Assembly: GCF_000214375.1 (NCBI RefSeq)
Contig: NC_015578.1
Coordinates: 2,604,001 to 2,668,000 of the forward strand
DNA: 64,000 bases
Direction of reading: 5' to 3'
Source of the DNA: Treponema primitia ZAS-2
GTDB lineage: Bacteria > Spirochaetota > Spirochaetia > Treponematales > Breznakiellaceae
Below, one piece after another: positions 1,839-46,692 of the stretch. The notes beneath the pieces were generated by a model. That model was not told the origin of the DNA, did no database searches, and was given only the letters and a program-made list of their open reading frames with translations. Positions within the stretch are counted from its first letter, which is position 1, and each line of letters starts with the position of its first letter. The position numbers were made by a program, and so were the translations under genes.

Positions 1839-2306
1839 ATGCCTGAAACAAACGAGGAAACAGAAGTATTTAACGGGGAAAAATACCTGATATTTACCAT
1901 TTTGGGGAAATTCTATACCTTCCCGTCCCGGATAATAAGCGAAGTTACCGCTTTTGATACGGTTTATCCTCTGCCCCTGCTGCCGGAATATGTGATGGGG
2001 ATCATAAACCGCTATTCCGCACCCTATGCCCTGGTGGATATAGGGCTCCTGATCCAAAAAAACCCCACCCCCCGGGCTAAAGTTGTGGTCCTCAAGGAAA
2101 CCGTGGAAAAAATAGCCTTCCTCATTGATGATGTGGTGGACATTATCGACATAGCCCAGTCGGATTTGCTAAAACTCGAACAGGGTACCGAAGTAAATGA
2201 TGCTACGGATATTATTGAGTCTTCCTTTGAATGGCACGATACCAATGTATTTGTTCTTAATTTCCGGCAGATTATCAGCCGGGTGGTCAGTGAATTCCGT
2301 ATTTAA
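1839..2306 (+). CDS. cheW: CheW-type chemotaxis adaptor
   Basis: This 155-residue protein has the length and pattern of a single CheW domain, the SH3-like adaptor that bridges receptors and CheA. Diagnostic segments are KYLIFTILGKFYTFPSRIIS at the start, LPEYVMGIINRYSAPYALVD in the middle (the usual LPxxVxGIxNxRGxxxPVxD region) and IAFLIDDVVDII. The canonical NLRG motif is altered to INRYS, a position that contacts receptors. It opens an operon whose next members follow with gaps of 14 bases or overlaps, so it almost certainly serves the receptors and CheA encoded downstream. Its RBS is GAGGTG. Confidence 0.88.
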   Translation: MPETNEETEVFNGEKYLIFTILGKFYTFPSRIISEVTAFDTVYPLPLLPEYVMGIINRYSAPYALVDIGLLIQKNPTPRAKVVVLKETVEKIAFLIDDVVDIIDIAQSDLLKLEQGTEVNDATDIIESSFEWHDTNVFVLNFRQIISRVVSEFRI

Positions 2307-2320
2307 AGTAGGGGCGTTTT

Positions 2321-2881
2321 GTGAGGTTCTTTTTATGCGCCTTTGGGGATTTTTCTCTGGGGGTTCCCGTTTATGCAGTTTCCTCTCTCATAACTGTGCC
2401 CTGGGAAGTGACACAGGTGATAGACCGGGACCGGGATGAAAATACCTATTTTTCCCTCCCCCATTTTTTTAAGTCCGAAGACAAGGTCATACGCCACGGC
2501 TTTATCCTTAAGCCCCAGATTCAGAAGGTGCCCCTGCTCGGGGATGGGCTGGAAAATACCGCCCTGACTGCGGATCCCGCCCTGGGAAAAGCGGGCTTCA
2601 CGGAGCGGCGGAATGTGCTGCTGGTAACGGCGGTAGAACGGGAAGAGGATATACCCCAGGAAGAAATCCATTCTCTGCCCGCCGTACTCGGTGTGGGCAA
2701 TATCTATACTTTTTTTTCAGGGATCAACTTTTATCGTTCCATAATGAATGTGTTTATCGATCCGGCAGTGCTTATTCCAAGTATGCTCCTGGCCGGGGGA
2801 AGCAGGGAACCAGAGGTTCCGGAATCAGTTCTTACGGAAACCAATAGGGCTTCGGACAGGGAGGAAAAAACCGGTGATTAA
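2321..2881 (+). CDS. Divergent CheW-like chemosensory protein
   Basis: Begins at a GTG preceded by AGGGGC and ends 8 bases inside cheB. The 186 residues start with FFLCAFGDFSLGVPVYAVSS and end with the hydrophobic segment GVGNIYTFFSGINFYRS. Both recall the first and middle strands of a CheW fold, but conserved CheW motifs are largely absent and the central part (residues 35-115) is not alignable by eye. The C-terminal 30 residues are charged and probably flexible. Context, between cheW and cheB in an overlapping operon, suggests a second specialised adaptor or a cluster-specific regulator. The function is inferred from position; the coding call itself is firm. Confidence 0.65.
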   Translation: MRFFLCAFGDFSLGVPVYAVSSLITVPWEVTQVIDRDRDENTYFSLPHFFKSEDKVIRHGFILKPQIQKVPLLGDGLENTALTADPALGKAGFTERRNVLLVTAVEREEDIPQEEIHSLPAVLGVGNIYTFFSGINFYRSIMNVFIDPAVLIPSMLLAGGSREPEVPESVLTETNRASDREEKTGD

Positions 2882-3884
2882 AACATTGGTGGTTGATGAC
2901 AGCGATTTAGTGCGTTCGATCCTTAAGGATTTTCTGGAAAGCGACGGCGGTTTTATCGTGGTTGGAGAAGCGTCAAACGGCAGGGAGGGCTTTGAAAAAG
3001 CCCGATTGCTTAACCCGGATCTTATCACCATGGATATTGAAATGCCCGTCATGGGGGGACTTGAGGCAATCCAGGAAATCAGAAAGGTCCTGCCCACCCC
3101 GGTGGTGGTGATCAGCACCCATGATACGGCAAAGATGGCCTATGAGGCAACGGTAAAAGGCGCCATGGAATTTTACTCCAAGGATAATTTTACTGCGACT
3201 ATGAATCCCTTCAAGCGGATTCAAATTCTGGAAGCCCTGAAGCAAATTGCCGGAACCCGAAGCCGCCGCGCCGGGCTTGCAAATCTGAACGTAAACGAAG
3301 AGAAAAAAAACATCCTGAACCGGGCCATCCTCGCCGTGGTCATCGCCTCCTCCACCGGGGGGCCCAAGGCCCTGACCAGGCTCTGCGCCGGGCTTCCGGG
3401 AAATTTCCCGGCTCCCATAATTTTGGTGCAGCATAATACCTCGGGTTTCGACAAAGGATTTGTCCAGTGGCTCAACGATTATACCCCCCTGGAGGTGAAG
3501 CTCGCCGAACAGGGTGAGCTTCCCCTTTCGGGAAAACTCTATGTGGCCCCCACGGACAAACATCTTATTATGGATGTCAACGGCTTTGCCTTTGATAACG
3601 GGGAAATGGTAAACAACCAGAAACCTGCGGCGGATTTGCTCTTTAAAAGCGCCGCCAAACTGCTGGGAAAGGGCCTGATATCCGTGGTGCTTACCGGTAT
3701 GGGCGCCGATGGCGCCGAAGGAACCCGGTTTGTAAAAAATGGGGGGGGTATCACCCTTGCCCAGGATGAGGGGACATCCCTGATATACGGCATGCCCAAA
3801 GCCGCCTTTGATACCGGCGCGGTGGATATGGTGCTTCCCTTGGAATCCATAGCCGGCCGGCTTGTTGAATTGACAAAAGTATGA
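2874..3884 (+). CDS. cheB: CheB chemoreceptor glutamate methylesterase / response regulator
   Basis: Start is the GTG at 2874, eight or so bases after GGAGG and overlapping the previous gene by 8 bases; the frame extends upstream but the receiver begins here (IKTLVVDDS). Residues 1-120 are a receiver: Asp8/Asp9, phospho-acceptor Asp54 in TMDIEMPV, and a Lys at about 103. Residues 150-336 are the methylesterase with catalytic Ser160 (IASSTGG), His187 (VQHNTSG) and Asp279 (GMGADGA), so all three catalytic residues are present. Phosphorylated by CheA, it would deamidate or demethylate the receptors encoded downstream. It overlaps cheR by 4 bases (ATGA), indicating translational coupling. Confidence 0.95.
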   Translation: MIKTLVVDDSDLVRSILKDFLESDGGFIVVGEASNGREGFEKARLLNPDLITMDIEMPVMGGLEAIQEIRKVLPTPVVVISTHDTAKMAYEATVKGAMEFYSKDNFTATMNPFKRIQILEALKQIAGTRSRRAGLANLNVNEEKKNILNRAILAVVIASSTGGPKALTRLCAGLPGNFPAPIILVQHNTSGFDKGFVQWLNDYTPLEVKLAEQGELPLSGKLYVAPTDKHLIMDVNGFAFDNGEMVNNQKPAADLLFKSAAKLLGKGLISVVLTGMGADGAEGTRFVKNGGGITLAQDEGTSLIYGMPKAAFDTGAVDMVLPLESIAGRLVELTKV

Positions 3885-5521
3885 GTGATAAAACACCCCT
3901 TACGAGGCAGTTTCCGGATCCTGTCCCGGTGGATCCGGTTTTGGACAAATTGTCCCGGTGGGTGGAAAATGCTCTGGGGATAAAGGCCGGGGAGGACGCC
4001 CTGCAGAAATTACGGGAATACATGGAAAAACAATTCAACCCCAATATTTTTCAATTCCCCGGCGCCTTTGAATGGAGCCTCTCCTCCCGGGAGGAGCGCT
4101 TCAAGATTGCCCGGTTCCTCACGATTAATGAAACCTACTTTTTTCGGGAAGAGCCCCACTTTTACCTGCTGCTTAAGGAACTGCTGCCCCGCTTTGCCCG
4201 ACTGAACCGCCCCCTGCGGGTCTGCTCTGCGGCCTGTTCCGCAGGCTGCGAAGCCTATAGCCTGGCCATGCTGATGGACCACTACAGCCGTACCACCGCT
4301 TTCCTGGACTTCAAAATCGAAGCCTTTGATATAAGTCAGGATATGATAGAAGTCGCCAAACAGGGCCGTTATACCTCCAATACATTTCGGGACGATGGGA
4401 ATCATTGGAAATATATCCTGGACGAATACCTCACAGAAAAAGATGGGGAATATATGGTCAATAACAAATTAAAGGAAAAGATACATTTTTTTCCCCATAA
4501 CATTATGGACGGCCTTGACCAGGCTTCCTTTGACCTTATCCTGTTCAGAAACGCCCTGATCTATTTCTCCGCCGAAAGCCGGGTTAAGCTCCTTGACTCC
4601 CTGACAAAGTCCCTTACCGAAGGCGGGGTTCTGCTTTTCGGGATCGCCGAAACCCCCTCGGTGAGCCATCCCCTGCTGCGGAATAAAAACGCCCAGGGGG
4701 CCTTCTATTTTCAGAAGGATTCCACCCCACCAAGCGAAGAAGACCGGCGGAATTCAGACCGTCAAGCCTCGGATCGCCGAGACCAGGATCGAAGATCCAC
4801 TGACCGGCGGGTATTGAACATGAAGGCTTCGGAGCTGAATTTCCCGGACCGGAGAGTCCAGGATCGAAGGGCCCAGGAACGGCGAACTTTGGACCGACGG
4901 TTCCCGGATATTCGATCCGAGCAGGCTGCGGGGACTGCAGCGCCCAAACCCCAGCCCCCCCCCAATTCCGAGGCCCCCGGCAAGGCAGGGTTAACCGTAA
5001 ACATGAAAACTATCAGCGCCCTTATTGAACAGGGTGAAAGCCTTCAGGCGGCGGAACGCCTGCTCATGGTCCTGAAGGAACCTGCGGCAGGGCCGGCAGA
5101 CTTACCAGCCTCAGGCAGGGCCGCCGTCACAGAGGAAGAGACCATCGCGGCGGTTATCAGCCTGCTCAGCCTGGAAGATTTTGCCGGGGCGAATCTGGTC
5201 CTTTCACTTATGGAAAAGAAACCCAAATCGGCCTTTACTAAATTCCTCCGGGGAGAATATAATTATCATCTGAACAAGGTTAAGGAAGCGGAAGCCGGCT
5301 ATAAGGAAGCTTCGAGTTTAAACAGCGCCTTTTGGCCTGCCTTTTACCGGATGAGCCTTTTAGCCGCCGGAGGAAACCGCACTCGCTATGAGTATAAAAT
5401 AAAAAAAGCTTTGGAAAGTATCGATATGGGCAAGGATATGTATTATGAGTGCCTTATCGGCGGATTTTCGCCGGATTATTACCGGCGTATCCTTGAAAAA
5501 CGTCTATCGGCAGAAGTGTAA
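3881..5521 (+). CDS. cheR: CheR receptor methyltransferase with xxDRR-repeat linker and TPR-like tail
   Basis: The protein has 546 residues, about twice a plain CheR. Residues 1-275 are the methyltransferase: TINETYFFREEPHF, the SAM-binding motif CSAACSAGCEAYSLAML (normally GEEPYS, here GCEAYS) and LFRNALIYFS. Residues 286-345 are two blocks of five pentapeptides of form xxDRR separated by ten residues; this segment is strongly basic and acidic and probably extended. Residues 355-546 look helical and TPR-like (AGYKEASSLNSAFWPAFYRM). TPR tails occur on other CheR proteins, where they mediate protein contacts; the DRR linker is unusual. The substrates are presumably the two receptors encoded next. 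Start ATG overlaps the cheB stop. Confidence 0.92.
   Translation: MSDKTPLTRQFPDPVPVDPVLDKLSRWVENALGIKAGEDALQKLREYMEKQFNPNIFQFPGAFEWSLSSREERFKIARFLTINETYFFREEPHFYLLLKELLPRFARLNRPLRVCSAACSAGCEAYSLAMLMDHYSRTTAFLDFKIEAFDISQDMIEVAKQGRYTSNTFRDDGNHWKYILDEYLTEKDGEYMVNNKLKEKIHFFPHNIMDGLDQASFDLILFRNALIYFSAESRVKLLDSLTKSLTEGGVLLFGIAETPSVSHPLLRNKNAQGAFYFQKDSTPPSEEDRRNSDRQASDRRDQDRRSTDRRVLNMKASELNFPDRRVQDRRAQERRTLDRRFPDIRSEQAAGTAAPKPQPPPNSEAPGKAGLTVNMKTISALIEQGESLQAAERLLMVLKEPAAGPADLPASGRAAVTEEETIAAVISLLSLEDFAGANLVLSLMEKKPKSAFTKFLRGEYNYHLNKVKEAEAGYKEASSLNSAFWPAFYRMSLLAAGGNRTRYEYKIKKALESIDMGKDMYYECLIGGFSPDYYRRILEKRLSAEV
4736..4915 (+). repeat. Coding repeat: ten xxDRR pentapeptides inside CheR
   Basis: Codons for residues 286-345 of CheR encode five pentads, a ten-residue spacer and five more pentads, all in register with a 15-base period. 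The codons for D-R-R vary (GACCGGCGG, GATCGCCGA, GACCGACGG), so the repeat is conserved at protein rather than DNA level. Confidence 0.85.
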
Positions 5522-5533
5522 GAAGGAGCGGAT

Positions 5534-7612
5534 ATGTTTTATAAAAACCTGAAAATTACCACCAAATTGGTTTTTTCAAGCGCCGTATTTATTCTGCCAA
5601 TCGCAGTAATGCTGTTTTTTATAATCTCCAATGCCAATTTGTCCATACAGGCTGCGGACAGCGAGCGGGCGGGGATAGAAAGCCTGCGTCCCATCGCCAG
5701 CCTTTTGCAGACCGTACCCCTGCACCTCAGGATGGTTCTGGATACCGGAACCAATGACATCAGCCGCATTGATCAGGAGATAGACTTTCAACTGAATGAA
5801 CTTGCCAAAAAGCTCCTGGATACTAGCTTCGGAAAGGGGACGGTCCCGGGCCGCCGCTATGTTTCGGGAGAGGAAATTCTGAAAAAATGGGAGGTCCTGC
5901 AGAAACTGAGGGGAGACCCGGATGCCATTCTTGCAGGGTACTATACCTTTATCCGGGACCTCCACGATTTGATTTCCTACATCAGCGATGCTTCCTCCCT
6001 GGTGGTGGACCCTGAATTGGAAAGCTGGTATTTTTCGGAACTCAGCCTTACAACACTGCCCAGAATCCAGGAACGGATCGTACAGATAAGCAACCGGATC
6101 TATGCCGCCCATTCCCGGGGAATATTAACCGAAGAAGACCAGGAGGAATTAGAAGCCTACAGGGTACTCTTCAGCCGTTCGGATAACCCCGGCCTACAGA
6201 CATCACTAAATGCGGCATTAGCCCTGCTGGATGAGCTTCCCGGCCTGGACCCGTCCTTTTCCCAGGAGCTTGTTTCCTGGGGAAAATTTTACCTTGATGC
6301 CGCAGAACAGCTTACAGAAACCCTTGATGTATTCCTAAATAGTGAAAATAGTGAAGACCCAACCATGTTTCCCCAAGAGCTTTATTACAATGAAGTCATA
6401 GGCGCCGCAGTCCAGGCCAATACCGCTGCTTACCGTATGTGGATTGCCTCCCTGAATCAGCTCGACGTTCTCCTGTTACAAAGAATCACCGTGTACCGGA
6501 ACCAACTGCTCCAGTCCCTCATATTCGCAGTTATTCTGACCCTTGCCGCGTTTATCATCGTGATCATCACCACCGCTAACATAACCAAATCCACCGCCGA
6601 GCTCAAGCAGCTCTTTAGGAGCCTGGACGGCAACGATCTTTCCCTAAAGCTGGCAGTCCATTCTAAAGATGAATTCGGCGAACTGATGTCCGCCTTTAAC
6701 CGCTTCCTGGGCAATCTCCGGGCTGTCTTTATTTCCTTTAATCAGGATGCCTCCAGGGTTTCAACCTCTGTGTACGATCTTTCCGCTTCTGCCAGGGAGA
6801 TTACCACCACTGCCAATGAACAATCCGCCAGCGTTTCTGAGATAGTCAGTACCATGGAGACCAGCAAGGATATGTCCAAGCAGGTAGCGACAAAAACTGT
6901 GGAGGTAGCGGAACTGGCCGCCAAAACCCAGGAACTGAGTCAGCGGGGAGCGGAACTGCGGGAAGCGAACCAGGAGATGATGCAGGATATCCGGGACCAG
7001 AACAATAAAATTATCGATGAGATTAAAAACCTTGCGGAAATGCTGGGCCGGATCAGCGAAGCCATAGGCATTATCGACGGCATAGCGGATCAGACTAAGA
7101 CCATCGCCTTTAACGCTTCCCTGGAAGCTTCTTCCTCCGGCGAAGCCGGCGCTCGGTTCGCCGTGGTGGCCAGTGAAATACGGCGTTTCGCCGACAATGT
7201 GGTGGATTCCACCGGGGAGATAAAACAGCGGATCGAGGAAGCCCAGGCCGCCTCCCAGAGCCTCATTGTGGAAGCCAATAATGGCTCCATGCAGATCGAT
7301 GAAGGCTATGAGCGGATGGTTGAACAGAAAGTGGTATTTGAAAATATCGTGGAAAATTCCAGAAATGTGGCGGTCAATTCCCAGCAAATTTCAGAATTAA
7401 GCCAAAAGCAGGAATACGCTTCCACTCAGATATTCACCACCCTGCAAGAAATATCCGCCGGGGTCAAACAGTTTGTGATCGCCATGGCTTCAACTTCAAA
7501 AATAGCGGACAACCTCAATATTATGTCCAATGAACTCCGGGAAACCGTGGGGCTCTACCGCACCGGGGATGATAAACTTGAGAAAACAAGAAAAACAGGA
7601 GATTCTGTATGA
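5534..7612 (+). CDS. Methyl-accepting chemotaxis protein with periplasmic sensor
   Basis: The 692-residue receptor has one N-terminal membrane segment (about 13-33), a large periplasmic region (36-320) with no recognised sensor fold, a second membrane segment (325-348), a HAMP domain and a long helical signalling domain. The kinase-interacting hairpin tip lies around 515-555: ADQTKTIAFNASLEASSSGE followed by FAVVASEIRRFA. The usual EAARAGE is changed to EASSSGE. Several Glu/Gln-rich helical stretches could be methylation sites. There is no C-terminal CheR-tethering pentapeptide. It follows cheR by 12 bases with RBS AAGGAG and overlaps the next receptor by 4 bases. Confidence 0.93.
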   Translation: MFYKNLKITTKLVFSSAVFILPIAVMLFFIISNANLSIQAADSERAGIESLRPIASLLQTVPLHLRMVLDTGTNDISRIDQEIDFQLNELAKKLLDTSFGKGTVPGRRYVSGEEILKKWEVLQKLRGDPDAILAGYYTFIRDLHDLISYISDASSLVVDPELESWYFSELSLTTLPRIQERIVQISNRIYAAHSRGILTEEDQEELEAYRVLFSRSDNPGLQTSLNAALALLDELPGLDPSFSQELVSWGKFYLDAAEQLTETLDVFLNSENSEDPTMFPQELYYNEVIGAAVQANTAAYRMWIASLNQLDVLLLQRITVYRNQLLQSLIFAVILTLAAFIIVIITTANITKSTAELKQLFRSLDGNDLSLKLAVHSKDEFGELMSAFNRFLGNLRAVFISFNQDASRVSTSVYDLSASAREITTTANEQSASVSEIVSTMETSKDMSKQVATKTVEVAELAAKTQELSQRGAELREANQEMMQDIRDQNNKIIDEIKNLAEMLGRISEAIGIIDGIADQTKTIAFNASLEASSSGEAGARFAVVASEIRRFADNVVDSTGEIKQRIEEAQAASQSLIVEANNGSMQIDEGYERMVEQKVVFENIVENSRNVAVNSQQISELSQKQEYASTQIFTTLQEISAGVKQFVIAMASTSKIADNLNIMSNELRETVGLYRTGDDKLEKTRKTGDSV

Positions 7613-9174
7613 CAAGCATGGAAGAACGTATTAACCGGGATGAACGGGACGGAGAAGTACTCATCAATTACTTCCGCGGCGCCCTGGCGCTCATCTGGGT
7701 GTTGGGACTGGTGGTAATTTCCATAGTCAGACATAAAAACGGTTTCGGTTATACCCCCTGGCGGGGCCATTTCGGCACCTCGGAGTATCTGGTTTTTTCA
7801 ATAATACTTTTTTTCTATCTGCGGAGAAAAGAACTGCTATCCCCTTATTTTAAGTATATTTGCGTGGTCTTGGACATGGTTTTTATTTCCACAGCCATCT
7901 TCATCACCGCAACCTACCCTACCCATTCCATGCCCATAGGTTTTCTCTCCATCCAGGCGCTCTTTTATGTACTCCTGGTTGCCCTGGGCGCCTTCCGGTA
8001 CAATGTACGCTGCGCCATTTTTTCCGGGATTTTCGCCGGTATCCTCTATGCCTTTGTGATCATCTATCACCGTAATATCATTGATATTCCCTATACGGCC
8101 CTGTATAAAGGTCAGGTACACGAGATTTCCTTTCCCCTCTACAACGAGGTCTTCAGAATAATGGGGATGATCATGGCCGGAGCGGTCACGGGGATTGCCT
8201 GTAAACGGCACATTGCCCTGTTTCAAAACATGATAAAATCCGAATCCGACGCTGCCGAAGCCGCCTCCCGGACCGTGGTCCAGACCAAGGAGATCGCCGG
8301 TACCATACAGAAGTCCACGGACGAAATCTTTATCTCCTCCAAGGACATCTTTACCACCGCCAATAACCAGGCCGCCAGTGTCCAGGAAATTGAAAGCACT
8401 ATTAATGAGAACGCCCAGATTGCGTCCTATATATCGGAGATGACCGGCAGCGTTGCTACCATCGCCGCAAAAATGGAAGATGACGTTATCCAGGGCTTTT
8501 CAGTGCTTGAAAGCAATGTTAACAAGATGGGAGACATCAAAGAAAAGAACGATGCTATCATTTCCGGTATCATAAACCTAGGCAACAAGATTGCTAAGAT
8601 ACGGGATATTGTCAAAACCATCAACACCATCACGGACCAGACCAAGGTGATAGCCTTTAACGCCGCCCTGGAAGCGGCAAGCGCCGGGGATAAGGGTAAA
8701 CGTTTCGCCGTGGTAGCCAGCGAGGTAAACCGCCTGGCCGACGATATAGCGTCCCTAACCAAACAGATCCGGGATCAGGTGGAGGAAATACAGGATTCCT
8801 CCTCCTCCCTCATTGTTTCCAGCGAGGAGGGTGCGGATAAGATCACCGAAGGCTATAAGCTGATTAAGGACCTGGAGGATGTTTTCAAGGAAATACGGTC
8901 CGGTGCCGAAATAACCTCCAACCAGGCCCAAACTATTACGGTGTCCACCCAGAAACAGCAGAAGTCCTCAGAGCAGATCAATATAGCAATTACGGATATA
9001 TCCAAGGGCTTAAGCAATTTTATTCATTCCACCGAGATCGCCACTGCCTCCGCAGAAGGTCTTACCCAATTGATCAAGGAACTGGAGATTATCCTGGATA
9101 CCAAAAAGACCGGTCCTGCCGGGACCAAATCCGGATCCGCCGATGACAGAGTCATCGATCCTATAAGCGTTTAA
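7609..9174 (+). CDS. Methyl-accepting chemotaxis protein with multi-pass membrane sensor
   Basis: The 521-residue receptor starts at an ATG overlapping the previous stop. Residues 20-205 form about six membrane segments with short loops, so ligand sensing would be within the membrane or of membrane state rather than by a periplasmic domain. No HAMP is apparent; the membrane block runs straight into the cytoplasmic coiled coil. The signalling tip is near canonical: TDQTKVIAFNAALEAASAGD and FAVVASEVNRLADDI. Pairing it with a periplasmic-sensor receptor in the same operon suggests mixed arrays. The last 20 residues are low complexity. Confidence 0.93.
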   Translation: MTSMEERINRDERDGEVLINYFRGALALIWVLGLVVISIVRHKNGFGYTPWRGHFGTSEYLVFSIILFFYLRRKELLSPYFKYICVVLDMVFISTAIFITATYPTHSMPIGFLSIQALFYVLLVALGAFRYNVRCAIFSGIFAGILYAFVIIYHRNIIDIPYTALYKGQVHEISFPLYNEVFRIMGMIMAGAVTGIACKRHIALFQNMIKSESDAAEAASRTVVQTKEIAGTIQKSTDEIFISSKDIFTTANNQAASVQEIESTINENAQIASYISEMTGSVATIAAKMEDDVIQGFSVLESNVNKMGDIKEKNDAIISGIINLGNKIAKIRDIVKTINTITDQTKVIAFNAALEAASAGDKGKRFAVVASEVNRLADDIASLTKQIRDQVEEIQDSSSSLIVSSEEGADKITEGYKLIKDLEDVFKEIRSGAEITSNQAQTITVSTQKQQKSSEQINIAITDISKGLSNFIHSTEIATASAEGLTQLIKELEIILDTKKTGPAGTKSGSADDRVIDPISV

Positions 9175-9182
9175 GGGCTTTT

Positions 9183-11531
9183 ATGGCAATAGATAAGGGA
9201 AAGTACATCGGTAAATTTATCGATGAGGGAATCGAAAACATCAAGGTTGTAGAATCGTTGCTCTTTGAAATAAAGGACGGCGTTTCGGTGGATGATGATC
9301 TGGCAACCCTGCTGCGGGCCCTCCATACCCTGAAAGGTTCCTCCCGGATGCTGGAATTTAAGCGCATCGAAGCCCTGACCCATGCCCTGGAAGGGGTTTT
9401 TGTAGCGGTCCGGGAACAGCGCATCGGCCTGACCGATAATGCCCTGCGGCTTGCCCTTTCAGCCCTGGATACCCTTAAGTCCGGACTTGCCCAGGTGCAG
9501 AAAACCGAAGACGACGCCATTGATATCCTGGCCTTTGAAAAGGAGCTTGCGGCCCTGGCGTCCAATGAGGAATTCCTGGTACCCGTAAGCGCCGATGCCT
9601 CCCATGGCGGGGCGGCCAAGGGCCAGGGCGGCGAGACAGCCCCGGAAAATTCCCCAGGCGCCCCCGAAGAGACTACGGGGGAAACCGTGGGTAAAAAACG
9701 GAAAAAGAAGGGCGGGAACCTGGTAGTCAGCAACCGGGCTCTGGAGGAACTCGGGGAGCGTTCCGTAGAAAAGGCGGAAGCCGGAGAAACCGAAAGCCAA
9801 CTGGCCAAGCGGGAAAAACGGCAGGACGCAAAATCCGAAAGCATACGCATATCCCTTACTAAAATTGATGATATCATTAAAAGTATCGCTTCCCTTCAAT
9901 CTCTGGAGATCGCCTCAAAAACCATTTCCATGGAAACAGAAGCGGTGCATGAGCTTATCAAGGTACTATCCCGGACCATCAAGGTAGACAAAACACTGAA
10001 CCCAGCGATAAAAGCCCAGTTCAGAAAAATTGAACAGCTCAATGGGAAGATAAATTCCCGGCTCAGAAACTATTCCATAGATGTGGGAAACCATACCCGG
10101 AACGCCTACGACAGCGTAATATCCCTGCGTATGCTTCCGCTTTCCACAATCCTGGAAGCCTATCCCCGGTATGTTTTTGAAATGTCCGCAGAACTGGGAA
10201 AAAAAGTACAGCTGATCATTGAGGGAAGCGAAAACGAGATCGATAAAAATATTATCGAAATACTTTCGGATGTTTTCCTCCACATGATCCGCAATTCCCT
10301 GGATCACGGCATTGAAAGCCCGAAAGACCGTATCGCCGCAGGAAAGGATGAGACCGGGCAGCTGGCCATCCGCTGCGCCCGGGAAAGCGGGAACATGAAA
10401 ATAACCATTTCCGATGACGGCAGCGGCATTAACCTTGAGGCAATACGGGCCAAGGCGGTGGAACAGGGATTTGTGACCGCCGATGCCGCCCGTTCCATGG
10501 GAGAGGACGACCTCACGGGCTTTATATTCCAGAGCGGCTTCACCACCTCCCGCTCGATCAACAGCATTTCAGGCCGGGGGGTCGGCATGGATGCGGTACG
10601 GGCCAGTATTGAACAGCTTAAAGGAAGTATCCTGGTAGAAAGCCTTCCCGGCAAGGGCACTGTTTTTACCATCCTGGTCCCCCTTTCCATAGCCTCCCTC
10701 ATGGGTTTCCCCATTGTCTGCGGGGACATGAAATTTATCATCCCCGCAAATTTTGTGGACACCATACTCCTTATAAATCAGGAAGATATTATTACTGTGG
10801 TTGATCGGCCGGGAATCAAATTTGAAAACCGGATAATAAAACTGTATTATCTTAACCAGATCCTGCACCTTAAAAACGAAGGGGATCAAAATACCAAGAA
10901 AGCTATTTTTGTGGTTATCATCCATGCCTATGATGATGTTATTGCCCTGGTTATCGACAGCATCAGCAGTATGCGTTCAGTAATCCTCAAATCAATGCCT
11001 GGCTTTATGGAGAGTATTCCTGTTTTTTCAGGAATGGTGTTAAGCGAAGACTATGAAATGGTGCCCGCACTGCACATACCCACGGTGATACGCATGGCAA
11101 AACACCTCAAAACCATTGATATGAAGAAACGGCACATCGAATATGAAAGGATGCGCAAGTCCGTACTGGTGGTTGACGATTCCCTTCCCACTAGGGAGAT
11201 TGAAGGGGAGATACTCAGGGCCGAAGGCTACAAGGTAGATACCGCCGCAGACGGCGCGGAAGCTTTGGCGGCGGCAAAGAACAGCCAATATGACCTTATC
11301 TGCACGGACCTCAACATGCCCATTATGGACGGCTTTTTGCTTACCGAAAATGTCCGCAAGAACGAGGCCCTGGCAAAGATTCCAATCATTGTTATTTCAT
11401 CACGGGAGAGCGAAGAGGATCAGAAACGGGCGGCCATGCTCGGGGCGAACCGTTATATTATAAAAAATTCTTTCAATAACCACAATCTGCTTACGGCAGT
11501 TAAGGACCTTATCGGAGAGGCAAATGGATAG
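9183..11531 (+). CDS. cheA: CheA histidine kinase with C-terminal receiver
   Basis: The order of domains over 782 residues is: HPt with His48 in ALHTLKGSSRML; a charged low-complexity linker (about 130-220); dimerisation helices; ATPase with N-box HMIRNSLDHGIESP, then DDGSGINL and GRGVGMDAV; a CheW-like domain (about 490-640); and a receiver from residue 659 (KSVLVVDDSLPTRE) with acceptor Asp709 (CTDLNMPIMDG). A separate P2 domain is not evident. A fused receiver is typical of non-flagellar or gliding-type systems, where it acts as a phosphate sink or intramolecular regulator. No free cheY lies in the operon. It overlaps the cyclase gene by 8 bases. Confidence 0.95.
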   Translation: MAIDKGKYIGKFIDEGIENIKVVESLLFEIKDGVSVDDDLATLLRALHTLKGSSRMLEFKRIEALTHALEGVFVAVREQRIGLTDNALRLALSALDTLKSGLAQVQKTEDDAIDILAFEKELAALASNEEFLVPVSADASHGGAAKGQGGETAPENSPGAPEETTGETVGKKRKKKGGNLVVSNRALEELGERSVEKAEAGETESQLAKREKRQDAKSESIRISLTKIDDIIKSIASLQSLEIASKTISMETEAVHELIKVLSRTIKVDKTLNPAIKAQFRKIEQLNGKINSRLRNYSIDVGNHTRNAYDSVISLRMLPLSTILEAYPRYVFEMSAELGKKVQLIIEGSENEIDKNIIEILSDVFLHMIRNSLDHGIESPKDRIAAGKDETGQLAIRCARESGNMKITISDDGSGINLEAIRAKAVEQGFVTADAARSMGEDDLTGFIFQSGFTTSRSINSISGRGVGMDAVRASIEQLKGSILVESLPGKGTVFTILVPLSIASLMGFPIVCGDMKFIIPANFVDTILLINQEDIITVVDRPGIKFENRIIKLYYLNQILHLKNEGDQNTKKAIFVVIIHAYDDVIALVIDSISSMRSVILKSMPGFMESIPVFSGMVLSEDYEMVPALHIPTVIRMAKHLKTIDMKKRHIEYERMRKSVLVVDDSLPTREIEGEILRAEGYKVDTAADGAEALAAAKNSQYDLICTDLNMPIMDGFLLTENVRKNEALAKIPIIVISSRESEEDQKRAAMLGANRYIIKNSFNNHNLLTAVKDLIGEANG

Positions 11532-13413
11532 TACGGTTTTGCAGGAAGAAAAACGTATACTGCTTTTTGAGGATTCGGATATTTTTGCCGACATGGTGCT
11601 GGAATTCCTCACTGCCCTGGGCTATACCACTGCTCGGGCGGTCAACGGATTTGAGGGAATCAAGGCGGTGTTCACCTTTAAGCCCCACCTTATCATCACT
11701 GATGTGGAGATGCCCCTCTTTAAGGGCTACCAGGCTACCAGGCTTTTAAAATCCCGGAAAAGCACAAAAGATATTCCCATTATCATGTTTACAAGCCTCA
11801 ATGAACTTAAGGATAAATTCTGGGGTAACCAGGCGGGGGCAGACTGGTATATAGAAAAATCCCCTGAAAATTTCTCGGAACTCCGGAGCAAAATAACCCA
11901 GCTCCTCTCCGAAGCGACGCCCACTGATTTCGTGGCCCTTGAGCGGGACGGGAAACGTATAGACGACAATGCCCTGATAGAAACGGTAAACAACCTCCTG
12001 GATGCCAAACTGTTCCAGACCACGGTGATAGGAATGCTGGCGGAACTTTCCGCCAAACTCGGCTCCCTGGAAGATATAGCCAAGGGGTTTTTTGACCTCC
12101 TGAACTATATCTGCCAGGCGGAGATAGTATCCCTGATGATAAAGGGCGCGGATAATTCCCTGATGGTGTATACCGCGAATATCGGGGGCTTTAACGCCGT
12201 AATTACCGATGATTTCAATGCCATCAGCATTGCGGATTTTGACAACCTGTTTCCTGACTTTCAGGTTGTCACCAGGGAAGTAAAGGATTTTTACCTCGCC
12301 GGGGAAAAGAAAAAGCGGATTGAATCCTACATCATGGTCCCCCTTTTAGTCGGCGGCGAAAAATTTGCCACCGTGCATATTGGCAATTCCATCAAGGAAT
12401 ATTTTTCCCCCACCATCAGGGAAAACATGGATGTTTTTCTGAATGCCGCCGCTCCGATTATTTCCAACGCCCTTTCCATGCTTGAGATGGAGGAACTGCA
12501 AAAGAAAACCCGGGTAGCCTTTGCCCGGTATGTTCCTGCGGATGTAATAGACGAAATTATCCACAAGTCATCGGAAACCGCAAGCTTAAGCGAAACCAGA
12601 AACCTGGTGGTCTTTTTTCTGGACATCAGGAATTTTACCAAGATTTCCGAAAACTCAAGCGCCCAGGACCTGGTAAATTTTTTGAATAAATTCTTCTCCG
12701 CCATGGGGAACGAAATTATCGCCGAGGGTGGGCATATCGATAAATTTATCGGGGATTCTATCATGGCCATATTCGGCGCCCCCCGGTCTCTGCCCAATGC
12801 CCCGGCCTGCGCAATCCGTGCGGCCATACGAATGATCCGGGCCCTGCAAACCGTGGACACCTCCCACCTCACCCTGCCTGAATCAGGGCTTGCCATAGGG
12901 ATAGGCATTAACTCAGGGGAATGCGTGGTGGGAAATATCGGCTTTCAGGACCGGATGGACTATACGGTAATCGGGGACAATGTAAACCTCGCGTCCCGTC
13001 TTGAAGGGGTTACAAAAATGTACCACCACCCGATCATCGTTTCGGAAAATATGTACGAAGCCGCCCGGGAGCAGTTCATATTCAGAAAGATAGATACAGT
13101 CAGGGTAAAGGGGAAAAATAACCCCGTGGGCTTATACGCAGTGTATATTGCCTTTGCGGGAGAGGAAGGGGCGGCGGATTTTTCGGAAGGAGTCGCCGCA
13201 TCCCTGGTTATTGACCGGGATCTCCTGGACAATTACGAAAAAGGGCTCAGGCTTTTCTATATGAGGGAATGGGAAACCGCAAAAACCTACTTCAACAACG
13301 CCCTGCGGATCAACGGTGAAGATTATTTCTCCACCCTCTATCTGGAACGGATTGAAGAATACAGCCTCATAGGCGAGCCTATGGATGATGCGGTAACCTT
13401 GACTGAGAAATAA
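11524..13413 (+). CDS. Receiver-GAF-adenylate cyclase, probable output of the chemosensory operon
   Basis: Residues 10-125 are a receiver with Glu16/Asp17, acceptor Asp60 (ITDVEMPL), Thr90 and Lys112. Residues 160-320 form a GAF-like domain. Residues 335-560 are a class III nucleotide cyclase: metal-binding Asp367 (FFLDIRNFT) and Asp411 (DKFIGDSIMAIFG), Lys407 and the MDYTVIGD region that favour ATP, and NLASRLEG with the transition-state Asn and Arg. A short helical, TPR-like tail follows. All catalytic positions appear intact, so cAMP is the expected product. The ATG lies inside the last codons of cheA, which makes this cyclase the most likely phosphorylation target of that kinase. Confidence 0.92.
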   Translation: MDSTVLQEEKRILLFEDSDIFADMVLEFLTALGYTTARAVNGFEGIKAVFTFKPHLIITDVEMPLFKGYQATRLLKSRKSTKDIPIIMFTSLNELKDKFWGNQAGADWYIEKSPENFSELRSKITQLLSEATPTDFVALERDGKRIDDNALIETVNNLLDAKLFQTTVIGMLAELSAKLGSLEDIAKGFFDLLNYICQAEIVSLMIKGADNSLMVYTANIGGFNAVITDDFNAISIADFDNLFPDFQVVTREVKDFYLAGEKKKRIESYIMVPLLVGGEKFATVHIGNSIKEYFSPTIRENMDVFLNAAAPIISNALSMLEMEELQKKTRVAFARYVPADVIDEIIHKSSETASLSETRNLVVFFLDIRNFTKISENSSAQDLVNFLNKFFSAMGNEIIAEGGHIDKFIGDSIMAIFGAPRSLPNAPACAIRAAIRMIRALQTVDTSHLTLPESGLAIGIGINSGECVVGNIGFQDRMDYTVIGDNVNLASRLEGVTKMYHHPIIVSENMYEAAREQFIFRKIDTVRVKGKNNPVGLYAVYIAFAGEEGAADFSEGVAASLVIDRDLLDNYEKGLRLFYMREWETAKTYFNNALRINGEDYFSTLYLERIEEYSLIGEPMDDAVTLTEK

Positions 13414-13482: not shown

Positions 13483-13761
13483 ATGGAATGGCGAGCAAGT
13501 CACATTTTGGTTAAAGATCGGTCCTTGGCGGAGGATCTCCTGAGGCGGATCAAGCAGGGCGCCCAGTTTGAGTCCCTGGCCCGGGAATTTTCCACCTGCC
13601 CCTCCAAGTCTTCCGGGGGGGATCTGGGCTGGTTCGGCCCGGGAAAAATGGTGGCCGGCTTTGAATCGGCGATTAAACGTATTTCACCGGGGTCCATAGG
13701 GGATGTCGTACAGACCCAATTCGGGTATCATATAATCAAATGTACCGGCAGAAAAGACTGA
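13483..13761 (+). CDS. Parvulin-type peptidyl-prolyl isomerase
   Basis: The 92-residue protein is a complete single PpiC domain: RASHILVKDR at the start, the GGDLGWFGPGKM loop and FGYHIIKCTG at the end. There is no signal peptide or membrane segment, so it acts in the cytoplasm. A strong RBS (AAGGAGG) lies 8 bases before the ATG. It sits between the cyclase and the HD-GYP gene, separated from the former by 69 bases. Any role in signalling is only suggested by position. Confidence 0.9.
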   Translation: MEWRASHILVKDRSLAEDLLRRIKQGAQFESLAREFSTCPSKSSGGDLGWFGPGKMVAGFESAIKRISPGSIGDVVQTQFGYHIIKCTGRKD

Positions 13762-13783
13762 CAACCCGTTGAGGAGGGATCGG

Positions 13784-15037
13784 ATGATAGCGGATGGGCC
13801 TGATTTTAAATCTATACTTCGTTTAGACTCAGAATTAAATCAGATCCAGGATTTAGATCTCCTGTTGGAACGGATACTCCTGGAAGCCCGGGGGGTGGTT
13901 CATGCCGATGCAGGTTCGATCTACGTTCGGGAGATCGAGGAAACCGACGGGGAACGGCTGGAAAAGCTGGTCATCAAATACGCCCATAACGATACCAAAC
14001 AGAAGGAACTTCCCCCGGGACAGAAACTCATCTACTCCGTTTTTTCTGTGCCCATTAACAGCAGCACCATTTCAGGGTACTGCGCCCTGAACAAAGTACT
14101 GATCAATGTACCGGATGTGTACAACCTGCCCTCTGACGCACCCTATTCCTACAACACCAGTTTTGACCAAATTTCAGGGTATAAGACTGTCTCCACCCTG
14201 GCCATCCCCCTGGTAACCGCAGAAGGCCGCCTGATGGGGGTTATTCAGATGATCAATTCCAAGGATCCCCAGGGTAATACGGTCCCCTTTTCCAAGGACG
14301 ATGAATTCCTCATTACCCACTTTGCCGCCAATGCCACGGTAGCCCTCCAGCGGGCCTATGTAACCCGGGCCATGATACTCAGGATGATCCGCATGTCCGA
14401 ACTCCGGGACCCCAAGGAGACCGGGACCCATGTAAACCGGGTAGCGGGCTATGCGGTGGAGATCTACGATGGATGGGCCCGGAACCACGGCGTCCCCGAT
14501 GTGGAGCGGGAAAAGTACCGTGATACCCTGAAGATAGCCGCTATGCTCCACGATGTGGGGAAGGTAGCCATATCGGATATGATCCTGAAAAAGCCCGGAC
14601 GTTTTACCCCCGAGGAATACCTGGTCATGCAGCACCATACCGTGTACGGGGCGGGGCTCTTTGACGATCTCCAGTCGGAACTGGATTCCATTTCCCGGGA
14701 AATAGCCCTGACCCACCATGAAAACTGGGATGGAACGGGGTATCCGGGCTGGGTAGATCCCCTTACCGGGAATCCCCTTAAAACCGACGATCAGGGAAAA
14801 CCCCTGGGAAGGAAGAAAGAGGAGATACCCCTGACAGGTCGTATCGTGGCCCTGGCGGACGTGTACGATGCCCTCTGTTCACGCCGGGTCTACAAGGACC
14901 CCTGGACCGAGGATCAGGTGCTGGATGAAATCCGGAATGTACGGGGTATCAAATTCGATCCTGAACTTGTGGATGTATTCTTTGAAGTATTGCCCAATAT
15001 AAAGCAGATCCAGGCCCTCTACCCGGAACCGAAGTAG
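13784..15037 (+). CDS. GAF-HD-GYP cyclic-di-GMP phosphodiesterase
   Basis: ATG 13784 is preceded by GAGGAGGGAT and is preferred to the in-frame TTG at 13769, which overlaps that RBS. Residues 15-190 are a GAF domain. The HD-GYP domain follows with His256-Asp257 in MLHDVGKVAIS, a downstream HH pair near residues 285-315, and Gly319-Tyr320-Pro321 in DGTGYPGW. All hallmark metal and GYP residues are present, so c-di-GMP hydrolysis is expected. Within the domain, segments such as KKPGRFTPEEY match the family. It ends six bases from the convergent YaiI-family gene, leaving no room for a separate terminator. Confidence 0.93.
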   Translation: MIADGPDFKSILRLDSELNQIQDLDLLLERILLEARGVVHADAGSIYVREIEETDGERLEKLVIKYAHNDTKQKELPPGQKLIYSVFSVPINSSTISGYCALNKVLINVPDVYNLPSDAPYSYNTSFDQISGYKTVSTLAIPLVTAEGRLMGVIQMINSKDPQGNTVPFSKDDEFLITHFAANATVALQRAYVTRAMILRMIRMSELRDPKETGTHVNRVAGYAVEIYDGWARNHGVPDVEREKYRDTLKIAAMLHDVGKVAISDMILKKPGRFTPEEYLVMQHHTVYGAGLFDDLQSELDSISREIALTHHENWDGTGYPGWVDPLTGNPLKTDDQGKPLGRKKEEIPLTGRIVALADVYDALCSRRVYKDPWTEDQVLDEIRNVRGIKFDPELVDVFFEVLPNIKQIQALYPEPK

Positions 15038-19729: not shown

Positions 19730-22700
19730 ATGTCTAAAAGAACGCTTTTTTGCCTCGTGATTGCCCTCACTGTCCTGCCCGGTCTCTGGGCGGACCCGGT
19801 GGGCGCCGAAACTTCCCTGGACCTCTCTTCCCCGGAATTAGCCGGGAGAGGCGGGTTTGTCACTTCCCAGGGGGGCGCCCCTGCAAGTATCCTGAACCCT
19901 GCAGCGGGGGGAGATGCCCAGCGTATTGTCTTTGATGCCGGATATATGGCCCTGGTCACCACCAGTACCGGGGGCGGGTTTGGAAATGCAATTAATTTGG
20001 GGACCCTGTTCCCTACAAAATACGCCGTCTTTGGGGGTAACCTTAATTTCCTGCAAAGTCCCGGTTTTAGCGGTAGTTACCCCATAGGGACGACCTTTGG
20101 GGGGAACTTCACCGCTGCTAAGGAACTGTACCCGGGCTTAAATGTTGGCTTGGGTTTTAACTTTGCCTTTGGCGAGGATGACGATGATGATGGGGTCTGG
20201 ACCGCCGCAGGGGATCTGGGTATCCGCCATAATGTGGGCAAAATAGGGCCCCTTCAGAATTTTACCTATGCTTTTGTGTTCCGTGACTTAGGGCACAGTT
20301 ATATGCCCGGCGCCTTTACCCCGGGCTTGGGGATTATCTTTGACTTTGTCCATATTCAGGGACGGGAAGATAAGCCTGATCCCCTGGTTGCAAAATTTGC
20401 TACGGATTTTACCTTTCCCACTTTTCAGAATATGACCGGAAAATTCGGCGTTTCAGCTACCATAGCGGAACTGGTAACCCTGTCCGGAAGCATGGGCTTT
20501 AACATCAAGGATATTGCGGATCATCAAAGCCCCTCCTGGCTCCCTTCCATCGGGCTTACGGTTAACCTGGGGCTCCTTTCCACGGGGAAACGTATAGCCG
20601 GGGGCAGGCTGCCTTCGGATGGGGATGTTGGGGTAAGTATGGGCTTTAAGCCCCTGTATAAGGATGTTATCGCCATAGGACCCGGGGTCAGTTGGTCTGT
20701 GGGGGTGCTGGATAAAAAACCGCCGGTGATTGTGATCGACTACCCTGAAACCCGGTGGATTTCACCCAACAACGATGGTAAATCAGATACCCTTGAGTTC
20801 CCGGTCACCATTACGGATCAGCGCTATGTTGCTGAATGGAAACTCGAGATCTTTGATGAATCGGGTAATCTGGTCCGAACCTATAAGAACAAAGAATTAC
20901 GGGTCGAAACCCAGGGCTTTAAGAATATTATGAACCGGCTTATTGCGGGTAAAAGCGGGATCGAAGTACCTCCCACCTTCAGGTGGGACGGTATCTTTGA
21001 TTCAGGGGACATCGCTGGGGACGGGACCTATACCTTTGTCATAAGCGCTGCGGATGATAATGGAAACGCTGCGTCCAGTCCCCGGTATACCGTGATGGTG
21101 GACAATACCCCCCCGGAAATTGAGATAGCGGAAATCACCGATGCGAATAAAATTTTCTCCCCCGACGGGGACGGTAACAAGGATACCCTCACCATTGACC
21201 AAAGCGGCTCCAGGGAAGAAACCTGGGAAGCGGGGATCTACGACGCCTCGGGAAACAAGGTAAAGAACTTCAACATCAGTGACGGAAAGCCAGAGCCCAT
21301 TACCTGGGACGGCACCGGGGATGACGGCCATATTGTGGCGGACGGGGTCTACAGCTACCGTATCAGCGCCACAGACAAGGGTGAAAATTCGGAAAGCGCA
21401 TCCCTGGAAAATATCATTGTAAGTACCATACAACCCAAGGTCAGCCTGACCTTGAACGATGCCTTCTTCTCCCCCAATGGGGACGGTATAAAGGACACCC
21501 TGATCCTGAGCGCCGCAGTGCCGGTAAAAGAGGGCATCCTGGGCTGGACCTTAAACATCCAGGACAATTCCGGAAGGACCCAGCGGACCATCACCGGGGA
21601 AACCCAGGCGCCGAATCAGGTTATCTTTGACGGCAGGGGCGATACCGGAGGTATACTGAGCGAGGGAACCTACAACGCGGAACTCTCCATCAACTACCGC
21701 AACGGCTATGTTTCCAAAGCCCTGTCTCCGGTCTTTACCCTGGACACTACGGCGCCCCGGGCCTCCATACGGACCGAATACAATGCATTCTCCCCCAATA
21801 ACGACGGAATCCAGGATGAGATGATCCTCAACCAGGAAGGGTCGGCGGAACTTACCTGGGTTGGAGAAGTACGCAGGGCTGGGGCGGCTCCTACAGAGCG
21901 GCCGGTCAGGACCCTGCGCTTTACCGGGGTCCCGGTGGGCCGGATCACCTGGGATGGGCTTACCGATGCAGGGGCCCTGGCCCAGGACGGGAACTATTCC
22001 TACCAGCTTTTCTCCACTGACCCCGCAGGGAATACCGGTGCATCCAATACGGTAAACTTCAGCCTGAGTACCGCGGATACCCCGGTATTGCTCAGCACGG
22101 ATCTCCGGGCATTTTCGCCGAATAATGATCGGAACAAGGATACTATCAATATTATACCCCAGTTACAGGTAACCCAGGGGATAAGCAGTTGGCGTCTTGA
22201 TATTAGCAACAGCGACGGTGTAACGGTCCAGAGCTTTAACGGCCAGAACACCGTGCCCGCTTCCGTTTCCTGGAACGGCAGGGACAGCGCGGGCAATACG
22301 GTTCCCGACGGGAACTATACTGCCCATATCGAAGTGCGCTACGCTGCGGGTAACCAGCCGGTTGCCATTTCCCGGCCCTTTGCGGTGGATACGGTTGCTC
22401 CAAAAGCGCAACTGTCCTCCCCCTACACCCTCTTCTCCCCCAACGGAGACGGGAAAAAGGATAATCTCCCCATCAATGTTACTACCGAGGGGGATGATGA
22501 TACCTGGGAAGCAGTTATCACCGATTCCAAGGGAACGGTAATCCAATCCTGGACCTGGACCGGAAAAGCCCCGTCCTCCCTTTCCTGGGACGGAACGGAC
22601 AGTGCAGGAAATGCCGTACCCGACGGGACCTACCGCTTCAACCTGAGCTCCACCGATGAGGCGGGGAACGATACCAGGATACCCCTGGACAATATTATTG

Positions 22701-23794
22701 TGGACGCCCGGATACCCAGGGCCTTCCTTACCTCTTCAAGCAACGCGGTTGCCCCCAAGGCAGGACCCACCGGGGAAGCCCTGCGCTTTAGCGTGATACT
22801 GACCCCCAGGGACGGCATAGAAAACTGGTCCCTGGAACTTAAGGATGAAAGCGGTACGGTACGGCGGCATTTCCCCGCGCCCGGAACCGCTCAAACAGCC
22901 GCACCCCCGGAACTTATTATCTGGAACGGTTATGATGATTCGGGGATACTCCGGGAAGGCCGGTTCACACCCCAGCTTTCTATTACCTATGCCAAGGGCG
23001 ATGTGGTTTCAATTTCCGCGCCCCCCATTACGGTGGACGTGACCGGGCCGGCCCTGAGCTTTGCCTATGAACCGGAATACTTCAGCCCGGATAATGACGG
23101 GGTGGATGATGAGCTTGCCATGTTCTTAGGGGCCATGGATCTGTCCCCCATTGCAAACTGGAGCCTGGAAATTCACGAACCGGAACCGCCGAATCTGCTG
23201 TTCTACCGCATTGAAGGCCGGGGAAGCCCGGCTGAAAGGACACTCTGGGACGGCCGGAGTTCCAAGGGCGAACTGGTTCAGTCCGCCACTGATTATCCCT
23301 TCATCTTCAGGGCCATTGATTCCCTGGGGAACATCAGTACCCTGGATGGAACCATCGGGGTGGATGTGCTGGTAATCCGGGACGGGGACAACCTGAAGAT
23401 CATGGTGCCCTCCATCGTGTTCCGGGCAAACGAAGCGGACTTCAAGGGCAAGGATCTGGACCCGGTCCAAGGCCTGACCCAGGCCCAGATTGACAACAAC
23501 AACCGGGTCCTGCGGCGTATCGCCCAGATCCTCAACAAGTTCCGGGACTACCGGGTCCAGGTTGAAGGCCACGCCAATCCCACCAGCAAAGTGGTACCCC
23601 CCGCAGAAGCCCAGGGGGATCTGGCCCTGAGCGAACGGCGGTCAAAAGCGGTGGTAGACTTCCTGGTGGGCTTCGGGGTCAACCGGGGCAGACTCAGCGC
23701 CATAGGCCGGGGCAGCACCAGACCGATTATCACCTTTGAGGATCATGATAACTGGTGGAAGAACCGGAGGGTGGAGTTTATATTGATCAAATGA
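19730..23794 (+). CDS. Outer-membrane barrel with Ig-like repeats and OmpA peptidoglycan-binding domain
   Basis: A 1354-residue mosaic. A signal peptide (about 1-21, ending near LWA) precedes residues 22-330. These have alternating short strands and the ASILNPAAGG motif of PorV/FadL-like or treponemal UPF0164 outer-membrane proteins. From about 343 to 1200 come eight beta-sandwich repeats of roughly 110 residues, seven with an acidic loop such as FSPNGDGKKDNL or FSPNNDGIQDEM (FlgD-Ig-like, possibly calcium-binding); one repeat is degenerate (VAPKAGPTGE). Residues 1250-1354 are an OmpA-type domain (VQVEGHAN, LSERRSKAVVDFL, GRGSTRPI). It could tether the outer membrane to peptidoglycan. RBS and start: AAGGAAAATTTTTATG. 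Confidence 0.85.
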   Translation: MSKRTLFCLVIALTVLPGLWADPVGAETSLDLSSPELAGRGGFVTSQGGAPASILNPAAGGDAQRIVFDAGYMALVTTSTGGGFGNAINLGTLFPTKYAVFGGNLNFLQSPGFSGSYPIGTTFGGNFTAAKELYPGLNVGLGFNFAFGEDDDDDGVWTAAGDLGIRHNVGKIGPLQNFTYAFVFRDLGHSYMPGAFTPGLGIIFDFVHIQGREDKPDPLVAKFATDFTFPTFQNMTGKFGVSATIAELVTLSGSMGFNIKDIADHQSPSWLPSIGLTVNLGLLSTGKRIAGGRLPSDGDVGVSMGFKPLYKDVIAIGPGVSWSVGVLDKKPPVIVIDYPETRWISPNNDGKSDTLEFPVTITDQRYVAEWKLEIFDESGNLVRTYKNKELRVETQGFKNIMNRLIAGKSGIEVPPTFRWDGIFDSGDIAGDGTYTFVISAADDNGNAASSPRYTVMVDNTPPEIEIAEITDANKIFSPDGDGNKDTLTIDQSGSREETWEAGIYDASGNKVKNFNISDGKPEPITWDGTGDDGHIVADGVYSYRISATDKGENSESASLENIIVSTIQPKVSLTLNDAFFSPNGDGIKDTLILSAAVPVKEGILGWTLNIQDNSGRTQRTITGETQAPNQVIFDGRGDTGGILSEGTYNAELSINYRNGYVSKALSPVFTLDTTAPRASIRTEYNAFSPNNDGIQDEMILNQEGSAELTWVGEVRRAGAAPTERPVRTLRFTGVPVGRITWDGLTDAGALAQDGNYSYQLFSTDPAGNTGASNTVNFSLSTADTPVLLSTDLRAFSPNNDRNKDTINIIPQLQVTQGISSWRLDISNSDGVTVQSFNGQNTVPASVSWNGRDSAGNTVPDGNYTAHIEVRYAAGNQPVAISRPFAVDTVAPKAQLSSPYTLFSPNGDGKKDNLPINVTTEGDDDTWEAVITDSKGTVIQSWTWTGKAPSSLSWDGTDSAGNAVPDGTYRFNLSSTDEAGNDTRIPLDNIIVDARIPRAFLTSSSNAVAPKAGPTGEALRFSVILTPRDGIENWSLELKDESGTVRRHFPAPGTAQTAAPPELIIWNGYDDSGILREGRFTPQLSITYAKGDVVSISAPPITVDVTGPALSFAYEPEYFSPDNDGVDDELAMFLGAMDLSPIANWSLEIHEPEPPNLLFYRIEGRGSPAERTLWDGRSSKGELVQSATDYPFIFRAIDSLGNISTLDGTIGVDVLVIRDGDNLKIMVPSIVFRANEADFKGKDLDPVQGLTQAQIDNNNRVLRRIAQILNKFRDYRVQVEGHANPTSKVVPPAEAQGDLALSERRSKAVVDFLVGFGVNRGRLSAIGRGSTRPIITFEDHDNWWKNRRVEFILIK

Positions 23795-43040: not shown

Positions 43041-43082
43041 AAACCTCTTCCTTAAAGCCAATTCGAAAAATCTTCCGTCCTA

Positions 43083-46668: not shown

Positions 46669-46692
46669 ACCTGTCATATTCCGACAGTTTCT

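Follow-up and report, generated by a model that had tools for sequence, protein, structure and literature searches.

The closest described system in design is Wsp of Pseudomonas (wspABCDEFR), which combines a receptor, two CheW homologues, CheR, CheB, a CheA-receiver hybrid and a terminal receiver-cyclase, and in which CheA phosphorylates the terminal protein to yield a second messenger (PMC8552884). In P. aeruginosa, intracellular cAMP is under the control of another chemosensory system, Pil-Chp (PMC3019171 and its reference 29). A survey of cheR-TPR clusters from 2012 placed a receiver-'mononucleotidyl cyclase' among the ACF response regulators, as a category only; its main text names no spirochaete, and it has no description of the operon reported below, of the operon's residues or of how the operon evolved (PMC3447774).

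We analysed a window of 64,000 nucleotides (positions 2,604,001 to 2,668,000 of contig NC_015578.1) from Treponema primitia ZAS-2, whose genome is a single contig of 4,059,867 bases. Within it lies one operon that holds the whole Wsp inventory: receptor, two CheW-fold proteins, CheR, CheB, CheA-receiver hybrid and receiver-cyclase. Its messenger enzyme is a predicted class III adenylate cyclase (PF00211; no GGDEF domain) in place of the GGDEF diguanylate cyclase of Wsp, the gene order differs, there are two receptors, and the operon is found here in Spirochaetota. Judged from these sequences, it operates in the manner of Wsp without being a Wsp system, cAMP replacing c-di-GMP. Pil-Chp resembles it in the chemosensory control of cAMP, and P. 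aeruginosa CyaB is the nearest solved structure to the operon cyclase (Z 22.7 over 187 residues, 36% identity). CyaB, however, is anchored in the membrane, lacks a receiver and has its gene away from those of Chp, and Chp also drives type IV pili; the operon cyclase has a receiver and is the product of the last operon gene.

Results

An eight-gene chemosensory operon ending in a predicted adenylate cyclase

The operon runs from 1839 to 13413 of the window in the order cheW, divergent CheW, cheB, cheR, two receptors, hybrid CheA with a C-terminal receiver, and receiver-GAF-adenylate cyclase, all eight genes being on the + strand:

1839..2306, + strand: cheW, coupling protein, 155 aa (PF01584, E 1e-12)
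2321..2881, + strand: second CheW-fold protein (predicted fold), strongly diverged, 186 aa, GTG start
2874..3884, + strand: cheB, receiver and methylesterase, GTG start, 8-base overlap (PF01339, E 4e-58; PF00072, E 6e-23)
3881..5521, + strand: cheR, methyltransferase with a long C-terminal extension (PF01739, E 1.2e-39)
5534..7612, + strand: chemoreceptor 1, with HAMP (PF00015, PF00672)
7609..9174, + strand: chemoreceptor 2, no HAMP found (PF00015)
9183..11531, + strand: hybrid cheA with Hpt, ATPase, CheW domain and C-terminal receiver (PF01627, PF02518, PF01584, PF00072)
11524..13413, + strand: receiver-GAF-class III adenylate cyclase (predicted) with a TPR-like tail, 629 aa (PF00072, PF00211)

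No gap exceeds 14 bases, the widest being that at the cheW/CheW-like junction (2307-2320). A preliminary description of this DNA, made from the sequence alone, had already given this gene order, strand, extent and spacing, with which the ORF coordinates agreed, and its domain identities were reproduced by Pfam matches. It had counted five overlapping junctions; there are four among the seven (2874/2881, 3881/3884, 7609/7612 and 11524/11531), the last of which places the cyclase ATG (11524) inside cheA, as it had noted. Pfam matches of the operon genes also confirmed that cheY, cheX, cheD and flagellar genes are absent from the operon. Promoter and terminator scans around the operon gave no more matches than shuffles, and an Rfam search at the operon gave no match. 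Upstream are two GC-rich inverted repeats, 1153-1288 and 1616-1740 (31 nt, 97% and 30 nt, 100% complementary, respectively), which are REP-like and related to each other as a larger inverted pair. Two genes follow the operon directly:

13483-13761, + strand: PpiC-type isomerase, 92 aa, directly downstream of the operon
13769-15037, + strand: GAF-HD-GYP protein, after the isomerase

The HD-GYP protein could link cAMP and c-di-GMP control. Elsewhere in the window we noted a single ORF of 5717 codons (25908-43061, minus strand), a 1354-aa protein (19730-23794) with FlgD-type Ig, CHU_C (type IX sorting) and OmpA domain matches, here in a spirochaete, and an AbiEii-like nucleotidyltransferase, a hybrid histidine kinase and a CBS-SpoIIE phosphatase near one another (45131-50346, minus strand).

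By Pfam, the operon encodes the core of a chemosensory system: MCP, CheW and a CheA with Hpt, ATPase and CheW domains. In this CheA, H48, the N- and G-boxes and receiver residues D665, D666, D709 and K761 are conserved; the C-terminal receiver (residues 661-773, PF00072, E 1.3e-24) had been missed by the preliminary description, and no P2 domain was recognised by Pfam. The receiver pocket of CheB is intact (D8, D9, D54, T82 and K103), and the long C-terminal extension of CheR gave no TPR match by Pfam at E 0.01. The CheW-like protein encoded at 2321..2881 had no Pfam match itself; three of 20 positional homologues matched Pfam CheW (best E 0.0013), and an hhalign comparison of its family with the operon CheW was weak (probability 18%). 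Its AlphaFold model (pLDDT 78.8) had only CheW or CheA-P5 among its best 18 PDB matches, and we regard the predicted CheW fold of this protein as settled by that fold comparison.

The cyclase protein

The last gene product matched PF00211 (E 8e-28) and carries the residues of a class III adenylate cyclase: D367 and D411 (metals), K407 and D485 (adenine), N488 and R492. These six are invariant or nearly so across the cyclase family and, nearly without exception in the Spirochaetota loci, predict an adenylate cyclase. The receiver pocket is complete, with E16, D17, D60, T90 and K112 as in a response regulator, and Asp60, the position singled out earlier as the phospho-site, therefore stands in an intact pocket. 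The GAF domain of the preliminary description had no Pfam match in the window cyclase itself, even at E 1; it was recovered through relatives, 6 of 24 of which matched GAF_2 (best 8e-5), and through the predicted model (pLDDT 83), whose secondary structure has GAF topology between the receiver and the catalytic domain. Structural matches to this model consisted of the receiver and catalytic domains and hardly covered the GAF part. The C-terminus forms a TPR-like tail that had gone unmentioned.

The genome encodes eight class III cyclases, seven besides that of the operon. Three receiver-cyclases without GAF lie at C1:2179536, 3050773 and 3058238, two of them nearly identical neighbours, and no CheW-domain gene is near any of the three. 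Candidate cAMP receivers are two ORFs whose phosphate-binding cassette is of the cAMP type, FGEM-x-LE-x-P-R-(S/T)A.

The operon is an auxiliary system

A flagellar-type che set is located at C1:1.202-1.206 Mb, 1.4 Mb from the operon, and comprises a CheA that has P2 but no receiver, a fusion of CheW with CheR, and cheX. In all, the genome has 15 receptors and two CheB genes. Both operon receptors share the tip DQTKxIAFNAxLEAxSxG; the main (flagellar) receptor tip type is QTNLLSMNAAIEAAHAG, and the indel pattern of the operon receptors is absent from it. Because tip and indel pattern differ from the main type, comparison of the receptors suggests that the two kinds form separate arrays. In gene content the operon is that of an ACF system, since the cluster includes a multidomain response regulator and lacks genes for flagella or pili, and it is auxiliary and separate from the flagellar system. 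A receptor of flagellar tip type was also seen just left of the window (C1:2602642-2603088), ~2.8 kb upstream of the operon.

The cyclase is linked to one clade of CheA

We searched 393 Spirochaetota genomes for relatives of the cyclase and inspected their gene neighbourhoods. Full-length relatives sit directly behind a CheA; catalytic-domain-only matches turned out to be ordinary class III cyclases and were left out of the family. In every single-cyclase locus in which both genes were located (50/50), cheA and the cyclase share a strand, with a spacing between -11 and +15 bases in 49, and a junction that recurs in this way is, judged by gene order, more than chance. The synteny search across other spirochaetes that the preliminary description had suggested, for cheA followed by a receiver-GAF-cyclase, thus found the junction throughout the set. 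Loci with a cyclase unlinked to cheA, which it had named as evidence against its own reading, did not occur among full-length homologues; one CheA of the cyclase-linked clade (at locus L187) has no cyclase adjoining.

Phylogenetic analysis of the CheA core placed the cyclase-linked CheAs in a single clade of 34 (SH-aLRT 99), to which eight other CheA-receiver systems from the phylum do not belong. CheA and cyclase distances were correlated over 29 loci (Mantel r 0.82 with the catalytic part of the cyclase and 0.79 with its N-terminal part, p 0.0005). The earlier proposal that cAMP is the output of the receptor array is well supported by this phylum-wide linkage of the cyclase to one CheA clade, by the conserved adenylate residues and by the correlated distances.

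In a scan of genome contigs, the full-length relatives among the best 80 of 578 confirmed candidates were all from Spirochaetota, and the closest operons among those 80 include termite-gut Treponema and Spirochaetaceae assemblies, the termite origin being read from isolate names. RpoB identity to the window genome falls from 90% in G303 and 88% in G365 to 58% in both G008 and G210, with CheA identities to the window CheA of 68, 64, 61 and 65%, respectively. Because CheA identity holds while RpoB identity drops, the operon has probably moved between distant spirochaetes. Misbinning is possible for the far-flung operon of G210, a fragmentary assembly (5-kb contigs, 72% complete), and less likely for that of G008, which is on an 86-kb contig.

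Two further spirochaetal loci, L188 and L191, likewise combine a CheA-receiver, CheB and a receiver-adenylate/guanylate cyclase in one cluster, but their CheA belongs to another clade, the order is cheR-cheW-mcp-cheA-cheB-cyclase, and the cyclase has ~400 aa and no GAF. We believe these probably represent a separate recruitment of the same kind of output, cAMP/cGMP. The receiver-cyclases concerned (L188:9807-11078 and L191:10803-12005, after cheB) have an HNOBA-like linker, and a third locus, L186, has a receiver-PAS-GGDEF protein in their place.

Receiver decay and loss of the CheA kinase in relatives

Within the window clade, the cyclase receiver pocket is complete in all 9 members except one, which reads E-N-D-S-K. 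Over 16 pocket-bearing loci (the window clade and L063-L069), mean identity was 53% for the receiver and 56% for the catalytic domain. The corresponding values over the 13 decayed-pocket loci analysed, nearly all Treponema relatives, were 22% and 60%. Decay took place at least twice on the tree, and the pocket is also lost in the tandem-cyclase loci described below.

The CheA itself is reduced in 13 loci from 13 Treponema-related genomes (L213-L225). It measures ~490-560 aa and has no ATPase domain; E, S, T, C or R stands in place of the phospho-histidine, and only the CheW domain and an intact-looking receiver are retained. The accompanying cyclases keep all six catalytic residues, and most of the CheBs keep their receiver pocket. 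These loci form one clade (SH-aLRT 100) nested in the decayed-receiver group; as read from the tree, the cyclase receiver would have decayed before the kinase was lost. We considered and rejected assembly errors and gene splitting, as the 13 loci share one deletion and form one clade, and no second CheA piece was found in the surrounding sequence. In seven genomes with a kinase-less CheA, a complete CheA of the cyclase-linked clade was not found; a flagellar-CheA query detected a single flagellar CheA in each genome, plus one more CheA-like match in G319.

A published survey found the four core domains, kinase included, in all CheAs, by a method that needs the kinase domain to recognise a CheA (PMC10782961). 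A CheA without a working kinase domain also occurs in the CheA3/CheA4 pair of Rhodobacter sphaeroides (PMC10782961). There, however, the Hpt histidine is kept and the kinase comes from a partner CheA, whereas the spirochaetal proteins have neither ATPase domain nor histidine, and no partner was found in the operon.

Since the operon persists in relatives whose cyclase receiver is not phosphorylatable or whose CheA has no kinase domain, phosphotransfer is not, by this comparison, what selection keeps in common across the family. The preliminary description had CheA phosphorylating Asp60 of the cyclase. For the window organism and its clade this is plausible because the whole pocket (E16, D17, D60, T90 and K112) is intact; as a general coupling it does not hold, the pocket being lost in Treponema relatives and tandem loci and the kinase in 13 loci.

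Tandem cyclases with split active-site residues

Beyond the single-cyclase set, seven loci have two cyclases in tandem behind a cheA of the operon's kind:

L192:5867-9239, tandem cyclases
L193:3841-7268, tandem cyclases
L052:8315-11736, tandem cyclases
L129:5521-8603, tandem cyclases
L210:9261-12088, tandem cyclases
L211:7774-11306, tandem cyclases
L212:8891-12209, tandem cyclases

In all seven, the proximal cyclase keeps both metal Asp residues and has lost the Asn/Arg pair; in the distal cyclase, Asn and Arg are retained and the first metal Asp is replaced by His. Proximal copies form one clade (SH-aLRT 99) and distal copies another (SH-aLRT 97). Because one complete active site could form only in a heterodimer, these residues predict an obligate C1/C2-type heterodimer, like the halves of the animal enzymes. 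According to a review, bacterial class III enzymes homodimerise and the split active-site state is described for eukaryotes only (PMC9552081); we found no natural bacterial heterodimeric cyclase pair in the literature searched, which was covered in part. The tandem loci would be a natural bacterial case of split-active-site cyclases.

Discussion

The account we favour, and hold to be likely though well short of certain, is that an auxiliary, non-flagellar array controls its own adenylate cyclase, so that array activity is written out as cAMP, with both phosphotransfer and docking taking part. The operon would probably turn receptor signals into cAMP instead of steering. Beside the observed gene content, residues and linkage, the steps of signal flow that we infer (phosphotransfer, the sign of regulation, the stimulus and the cAMP effector) would run as follows. 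Two dedicated receptors and two CheW-fold couplers would set the activity of CheA, which would autophosphorylate on H48 and pass the phosphate to the cyclase receiver at Asp60, with CheB and the receiver of CheA itself as competing acceptors. Passed on through the GAF/coiled-coil linker, the change would activate the cyclase homodimer, CheR and CheB would adapt the receptors, and cAMP could act on CRP-like proteins such as the two ORFs with a cAMP-type cassette. A physical attachment of the cyclase to the array is probable as well, because linkage outlasts receiver decay and even kinase loss in relatives; the N-terminal domain of the cyclase may dock through the P5/receiver part of CheA, with phosphorylation as one optional setting of activity. 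Against this account, the other class III cyclases of the genome give cAMP further sources, the operon is retained in relatives despite a decayed cyclase receiver or a lost kinase, and the L187 CheA has no adjoining cyclase.

That array contact (via CheW, CheA-P5 or the CheA receiver), and not Asp60 phosphorylation, regulates the cyclase even in the window organism draws its strength from the 13 loci whose CheA has lost ATPase domain and phospho-histidine. Linkage and catalytic residues are kept there, the loci are nested in a group with an already decayed cyclase receiver, and searches of seven of the genomes found no complete CheA of the clade, only a flagellar CheA or one of another kind. 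We nevertheless think this unlikely for the window organism, since a complete pocket in its clade, in a receiver nearly as conserved as the catalytic domain, would be odd if unused.

It is improbable that the cyclase is merely co-transcribed, served by another kinase or a GAF ligand, with CheA's own receiver as the array output. The residues of that receiver are invariant in 20/20 CheAs of our set A2 and are kept in the kinase-less forms, and something else must serve the orphan receiver-cyclases of the genome; yet co-transcription sits poorly with the same neighbour in 50/50 loci, a single CheA clade and correlated distances. Spirochaetes are motile and hybrid CheAs serve chemotaxis in Campylobacterota (PMC10782961), but that the operon steers flagella, as an accessory chemotaxis system feeding flagellar CheY, is very improbable for an operon without cheY, cheX or flagellar genes, with a CheA without P2 and with receptors of another tip type.

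The passage from array to second messenger is a logic already known, and the unexpected part is the kinase-less and heterodimer relatives. Taking these together, we tentatively offer a bolder possibility: the cyclase may be intrinsic to the array and controlled by contact, phosphotransfer being ancestral and later discarded, so that a Treponema clade became kinase-free and another branch evolved a C1/C2 heterodimer. If so, receptors would drive cAMP without an operon kinase, and the heterodimer would be a bacterial parallel to the animal two-domain adenylate cyclases. The kinase-less relatives pose the question whether a chemoreceptor array can regulate an enzyme without CheA kinase activity. 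With the favoured account, the logic of Wsp would be extended to another messenger; the role of cAMP in spirochaetes is little known, and the operon offers a candidate upstream input.
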